A DNA stretch of 64,000 nucleotides, from contig NZ_SMAF01000001.1 in the NCBI RefSeq assembly GCF_004343305.1, positions 248,001-312,000 of the forward strand, given 5' to 3'. The translations under genes were made by a program, and so were the position numbers. Positions 27,442-36,700 of this stretch are shown piece by piece (position 1 is the stretch's first letter; every line of letters begins with the position of its first letter). The notes below the pieces were generated by a model. The model saw only the letters and a program-made list of their open reading frames with translations, made no database searches and was not told the DNA's origin. This stretch comes from Pseudofulvimonas gallinarii (GTDB lineage: Bacteria > Pseudomonadota > Gammaproteobacteria > Xanthomonadales > UBA2363).

Positions 27442-27933
27442 ATGAAGCCCCGCCGCGTCGTCGCCCTGGCGATGGCCACTCTCGTTGCCCTTCTGACGAC
27501 CGCCTGCGCGCATCGACCGGGCAAGGCGCCACCGCTGTCGCCGGTGGCCAGCAATCTGGCGGAGAGCATCACCATCCAGGCAATCGGGCTGGTCGGAACC
27601 CCGTACCGCTACGGCGGCAATACGCCGTCGGGCGGCTTCGACTGCAGCGGGCTGATCGGCTATGTCTATCGCGAAGGCGCCGGCGTGGCGCTCCCGCGCA
27701 CCGTGCGCGCGCTCGCCGAGGGTCCGTGGCCGGAGGTCGCACGCCGCGACCTGGTCAGCGGCGACCTGGTGTTTTTCGCCGTGGATGGGCGGACGCCGTC
27801 GCACGCCGGCATCTATGTCGGCGAAGGGCGCTTCGTCCACGCGCCATCCAGCGGCGGCACGGTGCGGCTGGATCGCCTTGATGCGGGCTACTGGCAGGAG
27901 CGGCTGCGCCTGGGAAGGCGGCTGTTGCGCTGA
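27442..27933 (+). CDS. NlpC/P60 (C40) peptidoglycan peptidase lipoprotein
   Basis: A 163-residue lipoprotein (LLTTACAH). The NlpC/P60 domain covers about residues 50-163, with the catalytic Cys in GGFDCSGLIGYVY, His in PSHAGIYVG and a polar third residue near FVHAPSSGG. These enzymes cut stem peptides of peptidoglycan in the periplasm. It is a short single-domain member like E. coli NlpC/Spr. Confidence 0.88.
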   Translation: MKPRRVVALAMATLVALLTTACAHRPGKAPPLSPVASNLAESITIQAIGLVGTPYRYGGNTPSGGFDCSGLIGYVYREGAGVALPRTVRALAEGPWPEVARRDLVSGDLVFFAVDGRTPSHAGIYVGEGRFVHAPSSGGTVRLDRLDAGYWQERLRLGRRLLR

Positions 27934-28014
27934 GATCAGCGCGATTCAACCCAAACGTGCGCGGGCGGCAGCGTGCGGGTCGGCCTTGCCAGCGTGGCGG
28001 CCATAGACACTGTC

Positions 28015-28033
28015 GATAAGGAGAATCAGAACA
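28015..28033 (+). promoter_or_regulatory. Fur-box-like site 1 upstream of DUF2061
   Basis: GATAAGGAGAATCAGAACA matches the 19-bp Fur consensus at 13 of 19 positions by hand alignment. It lies 81 nt before the DUF2061 start. Confidence 0.4.
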
Positions 28034-28057
28034 AATCATGCCGTGGCAGGCATGGAT

Positions 28058-28089
28058 GATATTGATTCTCATTCCTGAATCGGTATCAT
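28058..28089 (+). promoter_or_regulatory. Fur-box-like site 2 overlapping a leaderless promoter
   Basis: GATATTGATTCTCATTCCT (28058-28076) matches the Fur consensus at 13 of 19 positions. It covers a -35-like TTGATT (28062-28067) that is 16 nt from TATCAT (28084-28089). The predicted transcript would start at or next to the ATG at 28096, so the mRNA would be leaderless; no ribosome site is visible. Confidence 0.45.
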
Positions 28090-28095
28090 CACGCC

Positions 28096-28302
28096 ATGCG
28101 CAAGACACTCACATTCGCCCTGGTCCACTTCCACGTCGCCCTGCTGGTGGGCTGGGCGTTGACCGGCAGCCTCGTGGTGGGTGGCGCACTGGCGCTGGTC
28201 GAACCGGCCTGCAACACCGTCGCCTACTACCTGCACGAGCGCGCGTGGATGCGCTGGAGCGGTCCCGCCGGCGGCAGCGACGATGCCGCCAGGGCGGTCT
28301 GA
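28096..28302 (+). CDS. DUF2061 small membrane protein
   Basis: A 68-residue protein with two predicted membrane helices (FHVALLVGWALTGSLVVGG and the segment around ALALVEPACNTVAYYLHER). The VEPACNTVAYYLHERAW stretch is the DUF2061 signature. Function is unknown. Two Fur-box-like sequences and a promoter directly abutting the ATG suggest iron-dependent control of a leaderless mRNA. It converges on the large regulator gene. Confidence 0.75.
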   Translation: MRKTLTFALVHFHVALLVGWALTGSLVVGGALALVEPACNTVAYYLHERAWMRWSGPAGGSDDAARAV

Positions 28303-31113
28303 TCAGCCGCCGGGCACGGCGTCCGCGAGCCGCAACGGCAACGCCGTCAGGAGCCAGTGCGGTGTGCGGCCAGCGTCCGCGACAACCGCTTCGCCCCGCT
28401 CTCCGGCGCACTCATGGTCAACAGCCAGGGCATGGAAAAGGTCATGGCCCACATCGAGGACGATGTCGTCACCGAGGCGGCGCGCCTGGCGATCCAGCCG
28501 GTGCAGGTGGCCGGCCGCGGCGTTGTGCTCCCCGACCGCCTCGGCATGGACCACGCGCACCAGCGCCAGCCTGGAGTCGAGCAGCCAGTCGCTGGCCTGC
28601 CGTTTCGCTTCCGCCTCGGCGATGTAGCGCCCCGCCCCGTCCCAGTCGCCATCGAGGACCGCAAGTTCGGCCATGCCGATCAGCGCATCGCTTTCCAGCA
28701 GGCGGTACCCGGACCCGTCGAGTGAAGCGACCAGTGCCCTGTACAGCCTCGCGGCCCCGTCGTGGTCACCGGCCCGGAGCAGCGCGCCAGCCGCCTCGCA
28801 CTCGACCAGCCAGCGGTCCGGGACGCTGTCCAGCCCGGGTACGCGCTCGAGCACGGAGCCAAGGCGTACCCGCGCGGCGTCGAACTCGCCGTCCTGCACA
28901 TCGACCTGCGCCAGGCCCGTCTCACCGACCAGCCTGACTATCGGAACAGGCGATGCGGCGCAGCGTCCGTAGTCCTCCCGCGCCTGTTTCGGATCGCCGC
29001 GCGTAATGGCCACGGCGCCGCGCAGGCAATGCTGAAGATCGGCAGGCACGGCCGCCACGACGTCCGACCCGCCAAGGGCCTCGAGGCGGCGCAGGGCATC
29101 ATCGAAGCGCCCTTCCCGGTAGGCCAGGTAGGCGTCGAAATAGTCCAGCCACTGCCCGGCATCGCCCTGCATGCCGCCCGCCCGACGCACCCGGTCCAGG
29201 CGGCGACCGGCACGACGCAGGTCGCCGCTCATGATGTCCTCGTTGACGCGGTCCACCTCGAACAAGGCCAGCGCGTGCTGGTCCTCGGTCGACCGCGCGA
29301 GGTCCTCGGCCTCGCCGAGGCGGCGCCGGTAGGCCTCCAGCCGACCATCCCGGTAGTGGCGGTAGGCAACGGTCCTGAGGGCGTGCATGGCCAGTCGGGG
29401 ATGACCGACGTCATTGGCGCGCGCCAGCAGCAGGTCGAGCTGTTCATCGCTTCCGGGACCGCCGTCCGCGGAGAAGGTCGCCGCCAGCAGCCGTGAGCGC
29501 AGCGCATGCAGTTCGTCCCCTGCCAGCTCGAAATAGGCGGCGGCCTGGTCGAACAGTGACATGTCGGTCGGATCGCGCTGCTCCAGGGCATGCGACTGCG
29601 CGAGCAGCAGCGTCGCCCAGCCCCGCTCATGCGGCCAGCCGGCGCGCTCGGCGATGGCATCGGCCTGCAGGGCGCTGATCCGGGCGGCCGCGCCGTCCCC
29701 CATCGCCTGCTCGGCGTCCGCGCGCACCAGCAGCTGGCTGATGCGCACCGAAACGGGCTGCCGTGTCCAGACATCCGGCGTGAGGATCGCCAGCGCCTCC
29801 CTGTACTGGCCGGCACGGATATAGGCGCGGGCCAGCTCCAGTGAAAAATAGGGCTGGTGCGGATACGCGCGCGCCAGCTCGGAGAATGCGACAACGGCCG
29901 CGTCGTGGTCGGTTCCAAGCGCGAGCCACTGCGCCTCGATCAGCCAGCCGATGTCCTTGGGCAGCGGCGACAGCAGCGCCCGCGTCCGGTCCAGCGCAGC
30001 CTGCGCCGGCTGCGTCCGGCCCAGCATCTGCTCCACCTGGGCGATCTCGTACCACGCCAGTCCGAAATCGGGCGCGTCCTGCAGCAGGGCGTTGCCGATT
30101 TCCGAGGCCTGTGCCCACTGCCTGGCCATCCTTGTACGCCGCAAGCCCAGGAAACGTTCGGCGACCTCGGCGGACACCGCCAGTGCCGGCCAGGACTGGC
30201 CGGCGCGCTCCGGTACCAGCAGGTCGCGGACCTGCCCCGCCACCTGGTCGACGAGGAATGCCATCTGCCCGACCGGCCCTTCGGCGCGGACGGCCTGCCC
30301 GCCCTGGATCGAAGCCTGCACGTAAAGATGATGCGGCCCGGCATCGACCGGGCCGGCCGACAACGTGACCAGACGCGTGCCTTCCTGCTTGTCCCGGTCG
30401 GCGGCCAGATGTGCGGACGAAAGCAGCTGGATGTCGGGCAACATGGTCAACTGCCATGACAGCCAGGCTTCCAGCAGTCCGGCCGGCACGGCGCCCGTGC
30501 CGTCGGCCGGATCCGCGAGCACGATCAACGACACCGCCAGCGGTGACGAGGGCGCCGCCAGGCGGCTGCCGAGCGACACCAGGGCGGTCACCGCAAGAAC
30601 CAGTGCTGCCGCGGCAGCGAACCCTGTGCCGCGGCGACGGCCCACGGAGCGCGTCGCCGAACGCCCTGTCGACGACAGCGACTCCGGCCTCGTGGACGTG
30701 GCGGGTTCGCCGCCCGGTACCCCTTCTGCCGCCGACGCCACGGAAGGAATACATTCTTCTTCGGCAACCGGCTCCACCGCACACGGCGGCTCGAAGACGT
30801 ATCCGCGCTTTGAAACGGTGCGCAGCCAGCCGCGCCGGGATTCTCCCAGCGCCTTGCGCAGCATCCAGACACTCTGCGAAAGATTGCCGTCCTCGACGAT
30901 CACGCCCGGCCAGATGCGGCGGAACAGGTCCGCGCGTCCATGCAGGTGGTGGGGTTCGGCAACGAACAGCAGCAGCAGATCGAACATGCGCTGCGGCAGT
31001 TCGATGCATTCCCCATCGCGCTCGACGCGGCGATACCGCAGGTCAAGGCGGATATCACCGACGCGCAATTGCTTGGCCGTGGCGGGCCACGGCATCTGCA
31101 GATCGCAAGTCAT
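28303..31113 (-). CDS. Membrane-anchored winged-helix regulator with C-terminal TPR-like region
   Basis: A 936-residue CadC/ToxR-like protein. The N-terminal OmpR/PhoB-type winged helix (about residues 15-105) includes FDLLLLFVAEPHHLHGR and VSKRGYVFEPPC. A Ser/Pro linker and one membrane helix (about 160-180, AAAALVLAVTALVSLGS) follow, then a long periplasmic helical region of TPR-like repeats up to the C-terminus. It is likely a one-component membrane regulator. It is divergent from the subtilase gene, and TTTGAG boxes lie between them. The ATG at 31113 has no clear ribosome site; a TTG at 31173 behind AGGAG is a serious alternative. Confidence 0.78.
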   Translation of the reverse strand: MTCDLQMPWPATAKQLRVGDIRLDLRYRRVERDGECIELPQRMFDLLLLFVAEPHHLHGRADLFRRIWPGVIVEDGNLSQSVWMLRKALGESRRGWLRTVSKRGYVFEPPCAVEPVAEEECIPSVASAAEGVPGGEPATSTRPESLSSTGRSATRSVGRRRGTGFAAAAALVLAVTALVSLGSRLAAPSSPLAVSLIVLADPADGTGAVPAGLLEAWLSWQLTMLPDIQLLSSAHLAADRDKQEGTRLVTLSAGPVDAGPHHLYVQASIQGGQAVRAEGPVGQMAFLVDQVAGQVRDLLVPERAGQSWPALAVSAEVAERFLGLRRTRMARQWAQASEIGNALLQDAPDFGLAWYEIAQVEQMLGRTQPAQAALDRTRALLSPLPKDIGWLIEAQWLALGTDHDAAVVAFSELARAYPHQPYFSLELARAYIRAGQYREALAILTPDVWTRQPVSVRISQLLVRADAEQAMGDGAAARISALQADAIAERAGWPHERGWATLLLAQSHALEQRDPTDMSLFDQAAAYFELAGDELHALRSRLLAATFSADGGPGSDEQLDLLLARANDVGHPRLAMHALRTVAYRHYRDGRLEAYRRRLGEAEDLARSTEDQHALALFEVDRVNEDIMSGDLRRAGRRLDRVRRAGGMQGDAGQWLDYFDAYLAYREGRFDDALRRLEALGGSDVVAAVPADLQHCLRGAVAITRGDPKQAREDYGRCAASPVPIVRLVGETGLAQVDVQDGEFDAARVRLGSVLERVPGLDSVPDRWLVECEAAGALLRAGDHDGAARLYRALVASLDGSGYRLLESDALIGMAELAVLDGDWDGAGRYIAEAEAKRQASDWLLDSRLALVRVVHAEAVGEHNAAAGHLHRLDRQARRLGDDIVLDVGHDLFHALAVDHECAGERGEAVVADAGRTPHWLLTALPLRLADAVPGG

Positions 31114-31179
31114 GGACGGCCGGTCCGGCGGGCAACAGTGCCTGAGCGTAAGGGTGTTGACGGGCGTTGGCAATGTACT

Positions 31180-31202
31180 CCTACGACGAATCGCATCGTA
31201 GG
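31180..31202 (-). promoter_or_regulatory. Inverted repeat overlapping a possible ribosome site of the regulator gene
   Basis: CCTACGA and TCGTAGG (7-bp arms, 9-nt loop) form a dyad. On the minus strand its 3' arm overlaps AGGAG, the ribosome site of the alternative TTG start at 31173. It could be an operator or an mRNA hairpin hiding that site. Confidence 0.4.
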
Positions 31203-31307
31203 GAAGATCACCAAGGATTGGCTTTTGCATTGCAGCAACCGGGAACAACAGACCTACCCGCTTCCGGCAGGCCGGGAAAAGGCGCGATCTTCGTGATGAC
31301 TCGCACA

Positions 31308-31335
31308 CTCAAACGCGATTTGAGAAAAATTTGAG
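31308..31335. promoter_or_regulatory. Helically phased TTTGAG boxes between regulator and subtilase
   Basis: CTCAAA (31308-31313), TTTGAG (31319-31324) and TTTGAG (31330-31335) start exactly 11 bp apart. The latter two form a direct repeat of the type bound by OmpR/PhoB-family winged helices. A TATATC hexamer at 31368-31373 could be the subtilase -10, with a poor -35, which would fit activator dependence. The rest of the 417-bp intergenic region holds no further coding sequence. Confidence 0.5.
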
Positions 31336-33780: not shown

Positions 33781-36700
33781 ATGAGACCCATCGCCGATGT
33801 CCATGAATCGTTCCACCCTGCATGTGCCGCAGGCGTCGCGGCACACAGGGACACGCGGACGCGGTGGACGCTGATCGTACTGCTGCTGTCGGCCTGGCTG
33901 CTGGTCGCCCTGCCGGCCCGTGCCGGAACGCCGGAACCTTTTCTGTTCGAGAGTTCGGCACCGGGCCTGGCCGGCGGCGGACTGAGCCTCTCGGGCACGC
34001 ACTTCCACGGCATTTCATTCCGCCTGACCGAGCGCGTCCGCGTTTCCGAGATCGGTGGCCAGCTGAGTTCGTTCCAGCCGGCGACCATCTATGGGGCGAT
34101 CTACGCCCTCGGCACGCCGTCTTCGCCGGCTTACGTGCTCACGGACAGCAACCTGGTGGCGACCGCGCTGCTGGACATGCCCGGCGGCAACGCGCCCGCG
34201 GAAATCAGTACCGCCATGGACGTCGAGCTTGAACCGGGCTGGTATGCCGTTGGTTTCGGTACCGGCCGCCACGGTTCGCCCACGTCGCAGTCCTCGGCGA
34301 CGATGAACGCCACGGGCAATCCCAAACCGGCGAGAACCTACGGCCCCTGGACCATGAACATGGCCAGCGGCTCCATGGTCTTGCAGCAGACCTCGGTGCG
34401 CATTTTCCTGCGCGGCCAGCCCATCGAGCCCGCACCGGTCGATCCGACGCGCTTTCTCTGGCAGACCGTCGAGCCCTGGGCGTGGGGCGTGACCGCCTAT
34501 TACCGCATGGACAACCAGAATTTCGCCGCCCAGCGTTTCACGCTGAACCGGCCTACCAGGATCGACCGCGTCGGCGTATGGGGTGGATACATGGGCCACG
34601 GCACCGGCTTCGTGGCGATCTTCCCGCTCCAGAGCGCCAACGACCTGCCTCCGCATCCTAACGATCCGCTGCTGGAGCAGAAGGCGCTGGCCAGTGCGCT
34701 GATCACGAGCCAGTCGTTCACCGAGGAGCTGTTCGCCGATTTTGGCGGCATCGAGCTGCCACCGGGCCACTACGGCATGATCGTCGGCAGTGGACGCTTC
34801 GGCGCCGACGGCGCCATCTACCTGGTATACCTCGAAGACGGCGTCATCGTCCCGACCACCCTGCGCTACGAACCGCAGTTCCCGGGCTGGCTGAACCTCA
34901 CCTCCGTGTTCTCCATGCGCGTCACGGGTCTCATGGCCGAAATCGCCATGGATACCGATGTGCTCGACTTCGGGGACGTCCTCGTCGACGACGGTTCACG
35001 GCGGACGGTCACGATCACCAACTACCGCGAACACGGTCCGCTGGCGATCGAGCTGGCCTACCTGTCGGGTGACGATGCGATGCACTTCGATTTCGGCATC
35101 GATATCGCCGACTGCGCCAGCATCGCGGTCGGCGCGAGCTGCAGTTTCAGCATCGACTACCGGCCCCAGGCCGCGGGACCCCACGTTGCCGTGATGACGA
35201 TCATCAGTGACGGCATTCCCGATCCGGTCGAGGTGCAGTTGTCCGGCAGCGGCCTGGCCTCGGCGTGGGTGACACCAGGCGCCCAGGGCAATGGCAGCAT
35301 CCAGCCCGACGTGCCGCAATTGACGGCCATCGGTGACAACGTCGCGTTCTCGCTGACGCCTGCCGAGGGTCACCACGTGGCCGACGTTGAAGGCAGCTGC
35401 GGCGGCACGCTCGATGGCCTGGTCTTCAACACCGCGGGAATTGCCGCCGACTGCAGCGTGACGGCGGTATTCGCACTGAACCACTACTTACTGACCTATT
35501 TCGCCGGAGCGCATGGCAAGGTGGATGGCGACACCGTGCAAAGCATCGACCACGGCGGATCGGGTTCGGCCGTGACGGCGGTGGCGGACGAGGGCTACCA
35601 CTTCGTGCAGTGGAGTGATGGCCGTAGCGACAATCCGCGCCTGGACGCCAATGTGGTGGCGGCCATCACGGTGGAAGCGCAGTTCGCCATCAACACCTAC
35701 ACGCTGGCCTATTCGGCCGACAGCAACGGCAGCATCGATGGTGAGCCGGTGCAGACCGTTGAACACGGCGAAGACGGCGCACCCGTGACGGCGGTGCCGG
35801 GAAAGGGGTATCACTTCCTGCAATGGAGCGATGGTCGCGACGACAACCCGCGGGTCGATATGGCTGTCACATCCGACTTCGCCGTGTCCGCGGCGTTTGC
35901 GATCAACACCTACACCGTCACCGCCTCGTCCAGTGGCAACGGCACGCTGTCACCCACGGGTGCGCAGACCGTTGAGCACGGGTCGGACATATCGTTCCAG
36001 GTCTCCCCGGATCCCGGGTTCGTCGCGGTCGTGGGCGGCAGCTGTGGCGGAGAGCTCGACGGCAACACCTATGTCACCGCGCCCGTCATCGGCGATTGCA
36101 CCGTCGACGCCAGTTTCGTTGCGCCGGTTTCACTGCACATCGTGACCGGCGACGCGCAGTCTGCCGTCATCGGCATGCCTTTCGACCAGGCATTACGGGT
36201 GCTCGTGCTCGATATCGACGCCGAGCCGGTGTCCGGTGTCGAGATCACTTTCATGCCACCTGCCAGCGGCCCTTCCCTGTTGCCCGCCCAGGCAACCGTC
36301 ACGACGGGCAGCGATGGCATCGCCGCTCTCGGCGTCATGGCCAACATGACACCAGGCACGTATGCCGTCAGCGCGAGTGCGCCCGCCTATGCCGCCGCGG
36401 CCGGCGTGACGTTCGCACTGGAAAACCGGCTTGCAGACGCGCATCTGTCGGTCAGCGTCAGCGATGGTCGCGACCATATACGCCATGGCCAGGTGGTCGA
36501 CTATCTCGTCGAGGTGTTGAACGAAGGTCCCGACGCAGTCACCGGGCTGTCGATCGCCATGACACTGGCGGACAGCCTCGACGTTTCATCCGCCACCTGG
36601 CAGTGCCTGACAGCGGTCAGTGGATGCACCCCGAGCGGCACCGGCGCGTTGCAGGACAGCGGGCTGGTGCTCGGCGTGGGCGAGGCGGCCGGCTATGTGG

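Follow-up and report, generated by a model that had tools for sequence, protein, structure and literature searches.

A DUF2061 gene very probably controlled by Fur in a relative of Lysobacter, with a promoter placed for a leaderless mRNA

A relative of Lysobacter carries a gene of the DUF2061 family that is very probably turned on through Fur in iron starvation. The gene lies in a 64-kb stretch of DNA, referred to here as the window (features in Table 1), and the likely reading of its locus is that of a stand-alone iron-starvation gene, repressed by Fur, with a leaderless or near-leaderless mRNA and a product that would form a two-helix hairpin in the inner membrane. The link between DUF2061 and iron is not new, having been reported earlier in Caulobacter (PMC3751524) and Shewanella (PMC12442407). 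Beside this known link, the mRNA of the window gene seems to start exactly at the initiation codon.

Table 1. Features of the DUF2061 locus, with positions in the window
Feature	Position	Strand	Remarks
Fur box GATGATATTGATTCTCATT	28055..28073	.	the 28058 site of the first-pass annotation, set in the 7-1-7 frame; overlaps the -35 element
Weak Fur-like half-site GATAAGGAGAATCAGAACA	28015..28033	+	13/19; not supported as an operator
-35 element TTGATT	28062..28067	+	promoter score 13.1
-10 element TATCAT	28084..28089	+	6 nt before ATG 28096
Predicted transcription start	28096..28096	+	the A of the ATG; from +1 spacing
DUF2061 gene	28096..28302	+	68 aa; predicted two-helix membrane hairpin (H2-23, H26-54); Pfam PF09834

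Both the identity of the gene and its start codon are clear. The product of 28096-28302 matches the Pfam profile PF09834 with 81 bits against a cut-off of 23.1, covering positions 1-51 of 52. Upstream in frame, TGA at 28063-28065 is met before any further ATG, GTG or TTG, so that ATG 28096 is the sole ordinary start of the gene; K3 and T4, which are invariant in the family, stand just after it. A 299-aa open reading frame at 28038-28937 that overlaps the gene out of frame was rejected, as it looks like a spurious GC-rich frame. An NlpC/P60 gene (27379-27933) lies upstream on the same strand across 162 nt of intergenic sequence, while the downstream TPR regulator gene (28303-31308, minus strand) is convergent, leaving the DUF2061 gene without a same-strand partner directly 3' of it. 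The intergenic stretch also holds a terminator-like stem-loop on the minus strand (28037-28054) that serves no obvious minus-strand gene. FKBP and NlpC/P60 homologues precede DUF2061 in the same order in the window species and in both congeners compared, with about 640 and 306 nt (by arithmetic) between NlpC/P60 and DUF2061 in the two congeners. Over 81 loci (80 plus the window's), two kinds of neighbour, named by eye, recur: atp genes at 37 loci and a lipoamide-dehydrogenase-like gene at 42. The clusters with atp genes do not include the window's locus, and no iron partner that might hint at function appears among the clusters printed for the 81 loci.

The Fur box can be written in a 7-1-7 form, TGATAATNATTATCA. 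The first-pass annotation had connected the gene with iron through two 13/19 matches to a Fur consensus, and both matches are real: 13 of 19 positions agree with GATAATGATAATCATTATC at 28015 and at 28058, and the 28058 site reaches 14/19 on the opposite strand. Set in the 7-1-7 frame, the latter site becomes the box at 28055-28073, which agrees with that form at 12 of 14 positions (by eye) and with the comparative box pattern used below at 14 of 16 scored positions, and which overlaps the -35 element of the DUF2061 promoter. Elsewhere in the window a single further place, at 35193, reaches 13/19; with strands counted apart the window holds five matches of at least 13/19, compared with zero to three in each of ten window shuffles. 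Statements about the genome as a whole (3,452,107 bases in 57 contigs) rest on pattern searches and family searches. Three places in it lie within three mismatches of AATGAGAATNATTCTCATT, compared with none for a reversed-pattern control. One is the DUF2061 box; the second precedes hemP and the third precedes bfd, behind which comes a ferritin-family gene. Fur is classically known to regulate both hemP and bfd. The same genome encodes Fur (PF01475, 149.9 bits, at G000:C1:92058-92420) and a second, weaker Fur-family member (32.9 bits), probably Zur. The box at 28055-28073 is convincing as an operator, and its link to Fur is strongly supported. It is very improbable that the box arose as an AT-rich coincidence against a GC-rich background and that the gene escapes Fur control. 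At least one match of 13/19 or better does arise in 54 of 2,000 shuffles of the 162-nt intergenic sequence (one separate site in 53, two in 1), but the actual box ranks with those of hemP and bfd genome-wide.

The site at 28015 is not supported as a Fur site. It agrees with the 7-1-7 form at 8 of 14 positions (by eye), which makes it a half-site, and no counterpart was seen by eye in 110 nt from each of the two congeners (L002 and L003). The first-pass annotation implied that two Fur dimers cooperate in tandem at 28015 and 28055. Consistent with such an arrangement are the 13/19 score of the upstream site and the presence of GAGAATCA in both sites, in opposite orientation. Nevertheless, only one half of the upstream site is good and no equivalent was seen in the congeners; we rejected the tandem operator because 28015 is a half-site, and consider it quite improbable.

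Additional evidence for a link of 28055-28073 to Fur came from other DUF2061 loci, the comparison that the first-pass annotation had itself proposed. From 110 loci collected, 107 were used, the window's own among them, and the 120 nt upstream of each DUF2061 start were searched. A box of at least 13/16 was present at 57 of the 107 loci and one of at least 14/16 at 44, while 0.24% of 5,350 shuffles reached 13/16 and none reached 14/16. Since the 16-position pattern was framed after the sequences had been seen, the search was repeated with the E. coli consensus, and 14/19 was reached at 41 of the 107 loci, compared with 0.74% of shuffles. A later set of 40 loci contained 15 exact repeats of earlier ones; 15 of the remaining 25 carried a box of at least 13/16, or 14 of 24 once L154, a duplicate of L057, is set aside. 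Relatedness among the loci makes all these counts look more independent than they are, and the 50 of 107 loci with no box of at least 13/16 indicate that Fur control is common in the DUF2061 family but not universal. The boxes of the congeners L002 and L003 score 14 and 13 of 16, and Fur-like boxes recur at the DUF2061 genes of Alteromonas, of Shewanella, and of Lysobacter and its relatives. Among 398 sampled genomes of the order, 91 have DUF2061 matches, 18 of them weak. Divergent short matches in one genus (g42, family f12; for example, G094 and G223), covering about positions 2-38 of the profile at below 29 bits, are possibly a separate subfamily. A contig labelled Tolypothrix campylonemoides, a cyanobacterium (L013, JXCB02000016.1), also carries a DUF2061 gene that, like the gene order around it, resembles Lysobacter; this contig is probably contamination of that assembly.

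Published expression data for homologues point in the same direction. In Caulobacter crescentus, CC_0155 (CCNA_00154) is listed as 13.07-fold up with iron limitation and 5.99-fold up in a fur mutant (PMC3751524, Table 1); the main text of that paper does not use the term "leaderless." In Shewanella oneidensis, SO_4740 stands in a Fur regulon list with a Fur-motif weight of 10.8 (PMC12442407, Table 1), and the same paper gives a log2 change of 3.51 in a transcriptome comparison with an ssoR mutant. SO_4740 is also named among several mass matches for a peak altered after X-rays (PMC4476702). A literature search returned no report of an iron- or Fur-linked DUF2061 gene for the window's lineage. 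While the loci that lack a box are in keeping with a chance match in the window, the large excess of boxes over shuffles in the first locus set, the similar share in the later set, and the family members with a published iron or Fur response (PMC3751524, PMC12442407) all argue against one. Judged from sequence, Fur control of the window gene is highly probable. The iron link proposed by the first-pass annotation therefore stands for 28055-28073, given its rank in the genome, the relatives and the published expression elsewhere, and falls for 28015.

The promoter predicts where the mRNA begins. Promoters were scored with the matrix of E. coli, a different organism from the host. TTGATT-16-TATCAT, which the first-pass annotation had picked out, is the single promoter-like match on either strand in 27900-28420 (shuffle mean 0.1), and with the standard spacing of +1 from a -10 element, the +1 falls on A 28096, as had been suggested. 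When the 100 nt upstream were shuffled, a score of 13.1 was reached in 20 of 2,000 trials, and none of these 20 had its +1 within 1 nt of the ATG. Promoters so placed score at least 13 at one of the 4,877 start triplets in the window, which must be ATG 28096 given its score of 13.1, and at least 9 at two. Among the 42 gene-like open reading frames of at least 100 aa in the window, whose starts are uncertain and for which up to eight candidates were tried apiece, none has a promoter of at least 9 in that position. The congeners have TTGACG-16-TATCAT or TTGACA-16-TATCAT 7 nt before the ATG, so that promoter spacing puts the predicted +1 at 0, -1 and -1 relative to the ATG in the three species of the genus (L001, L002 and L003); further in-frame ATGs lie upstream in the congeners, at -18 and -24 in L002 and at -18 in L003. 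The best promoter falls within -3 to +2 of the ATG at 4 of 107 loci, namely, the three species of the genus (13.1-16.1) and L070 (a negligible 4.2), and at none of the 25 later loci. With a best-promoter score above 5, the leaderless layout is confined to these three species among all loci examined; if any promoter of at least 8 with its +1 within 1 nt of the ATG is admitted, L096 is added through its second-best promoter (8.7). Where the best promoter scores at least 8 (75 loci), the predicted start lies 21-25 nt upstream at 44.

The sequence before the ATG also lacks a recognizable ribosome binding site, as the first-pass annotation had observed. In the window this sequence pairs with the 16S tail at -3.1 kcal/mol, which was taken as no Shine-Dalgarno (SD), and in each of the two congeners the value is -2.7 kcal/mol. 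Pairing of -3.5 kcal/mol or weaker occurs at 19 of 107 loci, the three species of the genus included, so that a missing SD alone is not unique. Three other loci (L120, L123 and L132) have a predicted leader with almost no SD pairing, and SD-less initiation may extend to more of the DUF2061 family than the leaderless arrangement does. Translation from leaderless mRNAs is a mode already known, and the description of this one as unusual, made in the first-pass annotation, is fair in a local sense only. Among the titles returned by a literature search on leaderless mRNAs in Xanthomonas, none was pertinent. Fur control might instead act on a working mRNA with a leader, started upstream by read-through from NlpC/P60 or by an unrecognized promoter and translated without an SD. 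Such transcripts are possible in that a search of the gap between the NlpC/P60 and DUF2061 genes gave no plus-strand terminator, and SD-poor upstream regions occur elsewhere (among those 19 loci, for example at L092, where a leader is predicted). On the other hand, the promoter at the ATG is the sole promoter-like match in the region searched, and all three species of the genus compared have kept it there. A leadered mRNA is for these reasons unlikely, and a leaderless transcript, predicted from a well-placed promoter common to the genus, is the probable alternative.

The position of the operator relative to this promoter differs between the window species and nearly all of the other loci. Among 51 loci with a box of at least 13 and a promoter of at least 8, the box lies over the -10 element in 47, both congeners included, over the -35 element in 2 (the window and L057), and over neither in 2. 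The box starts at -41 in the window and at -25 in the congeners, a shift of 16 bp, and around the TATCAT of the window the congener-type box is reduced to a remnant of about 8 of 16 positions (by eye). These comparisons suggest an operator that moved by 16 bp while the promoter stayed where it was, at a distance from the ATG that changed by no more than one base.

Less can be said about the protein. An AlphaFold2 model from a 60-sequence alignment (mean pLDDT 86.5, pTM 0.57) has helices at residues 2-23 and 26-54, and the residues invariant in that alignment are K3, T4, F7, H11, A15, T23, G24, A33, E36, P37, T41, H47, E48 and W51. Many homologues have basic C-terminal stretches (by eye). Comparison of the model with the PDB gave eight matches at E values up to 10 and none at 0.001 or below, a two-helix hairpin being a fold for which structure searches are uninformative; a profile search of PDB sequences gave nothing credible (best E value 0.083, a potassium channel), and NCBIfam had no match up to an E value of 0.1. 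H11, E36, H47 and E48, together with the basic C termini, point to a hairpin whose two ends would be cytoplasmic and which may contain a cation site. Cation handling is a tentative proposal, possible but short of likely, and the existence of peroxide reports lowers its odds slightly.

Those reports raise the alternative that the protein protects against oxidants and that iron shortage is just one of its signals. In E. coli, mntH and suf answer to both Fur and a peroxide regulator, which offers a parallel. PA3237 of Pseudomonas aeruginosa is named in the more strongly H2O2-induced set, along with katA, katB, ahpF and trxB2 (PMC3091734), and mutants in PA3237 are less resistant to polymyxin B at high calcium, for which the authors raise a possible link to oxidative stress (PMC12632274). 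PA3237 is also reported to be down-regulated under nanosilver (PMC10591374). A relative of this peroxide-induced gene, in P. nitroreducens (L070), has no Fur box (7/16), and control of the family may have been rewired, with iron and peroxide regulators replacing one another. While these observations are consistent with an oxidant role, the Pseudomonas copy may be such a rewired case, and the signal seen at the window locus is a Fur box. We consider protection from oxidants, as opposed to iron supply, somewhat unlikely as the role of the window protein.

Under the preferred reading of a Fur-repressed gene with a leaderless mRNA, Fur-Fe(II) would bind 28055-28073 when iron is plentiful, covering the -35 element and shutting out RNA polymerase. 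Under iron shortage, Fur would depart and transcription would begin at ATG 28096 or within one base of it. The leaderless or near-leaderless mRNA would be translated without an SD into a two-helix hairpin of the inner membrane, which, through H11, E36, H47 and E48, may bind, or help to move, ferrous iron or another cation. A more speculative proposal, and a long shot, is that a Fur target shared with distant relatives lost its leader in this genus, that the operator shifted from the -10 to the -35 element in the window species, and that leaderlessness is a second layer of control. If this is true, the leaderless message would be favored when the balance of ribosomes and initiation factors shifts under iron or peroxide stress, and a metal-handling membrane protein would be both transcribed and selectively translated in starvation. 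For DUF2061, an uncharacterized family, the leading hypothesis from the Fur-like boxes and the iron and peroxide reports is a function in metal or oxidant stress. Through this genus, a Fur target that has a leader can also be set beside a version that lacks one, and changes of operator can be followed while the promoter stays fixed.

There are clear parallels between this locus and known Fur targets, along with several differences. In the same genome, hemP (L112:1278-1519) has a Fur box, AATGCGAATGGTTATCATT, within a TTGACT-16-TATCAT promoter, and this box is identical to the DUF2061 box of the congener L002. Unlike the promoter of the window's DUF2061 gene, that of hemP lies tens of bases 5' of its ATG, so that a leader is predicted. 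In Lysobacter and related genera (L011, L012, L033 and others), the DUF2061 gene likewise has a near-palindromic Fur box upstream, typically on the -10 element and with a predicted leader of 21-25 nt, whereas the window gene has its box on the -35 element and a predicted leaderless mRNA; the gene in those genera is often near atp genes (37 of 81 loci), unlike that of the window. PA3237 is a DUF2061 protein according to PMC12632274 and thus belongs to the same family as the window gene, but it is reported to be induced by peroxide (PMC3091734). SO_4740 of Shewanella oneidensis is a DUF2061 gene with a Fur motif, in a listing that gives no promoter layout (PMC12442407). Finally, CC_0155 of Caulobacter is a DUF2061 gene that responds to iron and to Fur (PMC3751524), in a bacterial class different from that of the window species.
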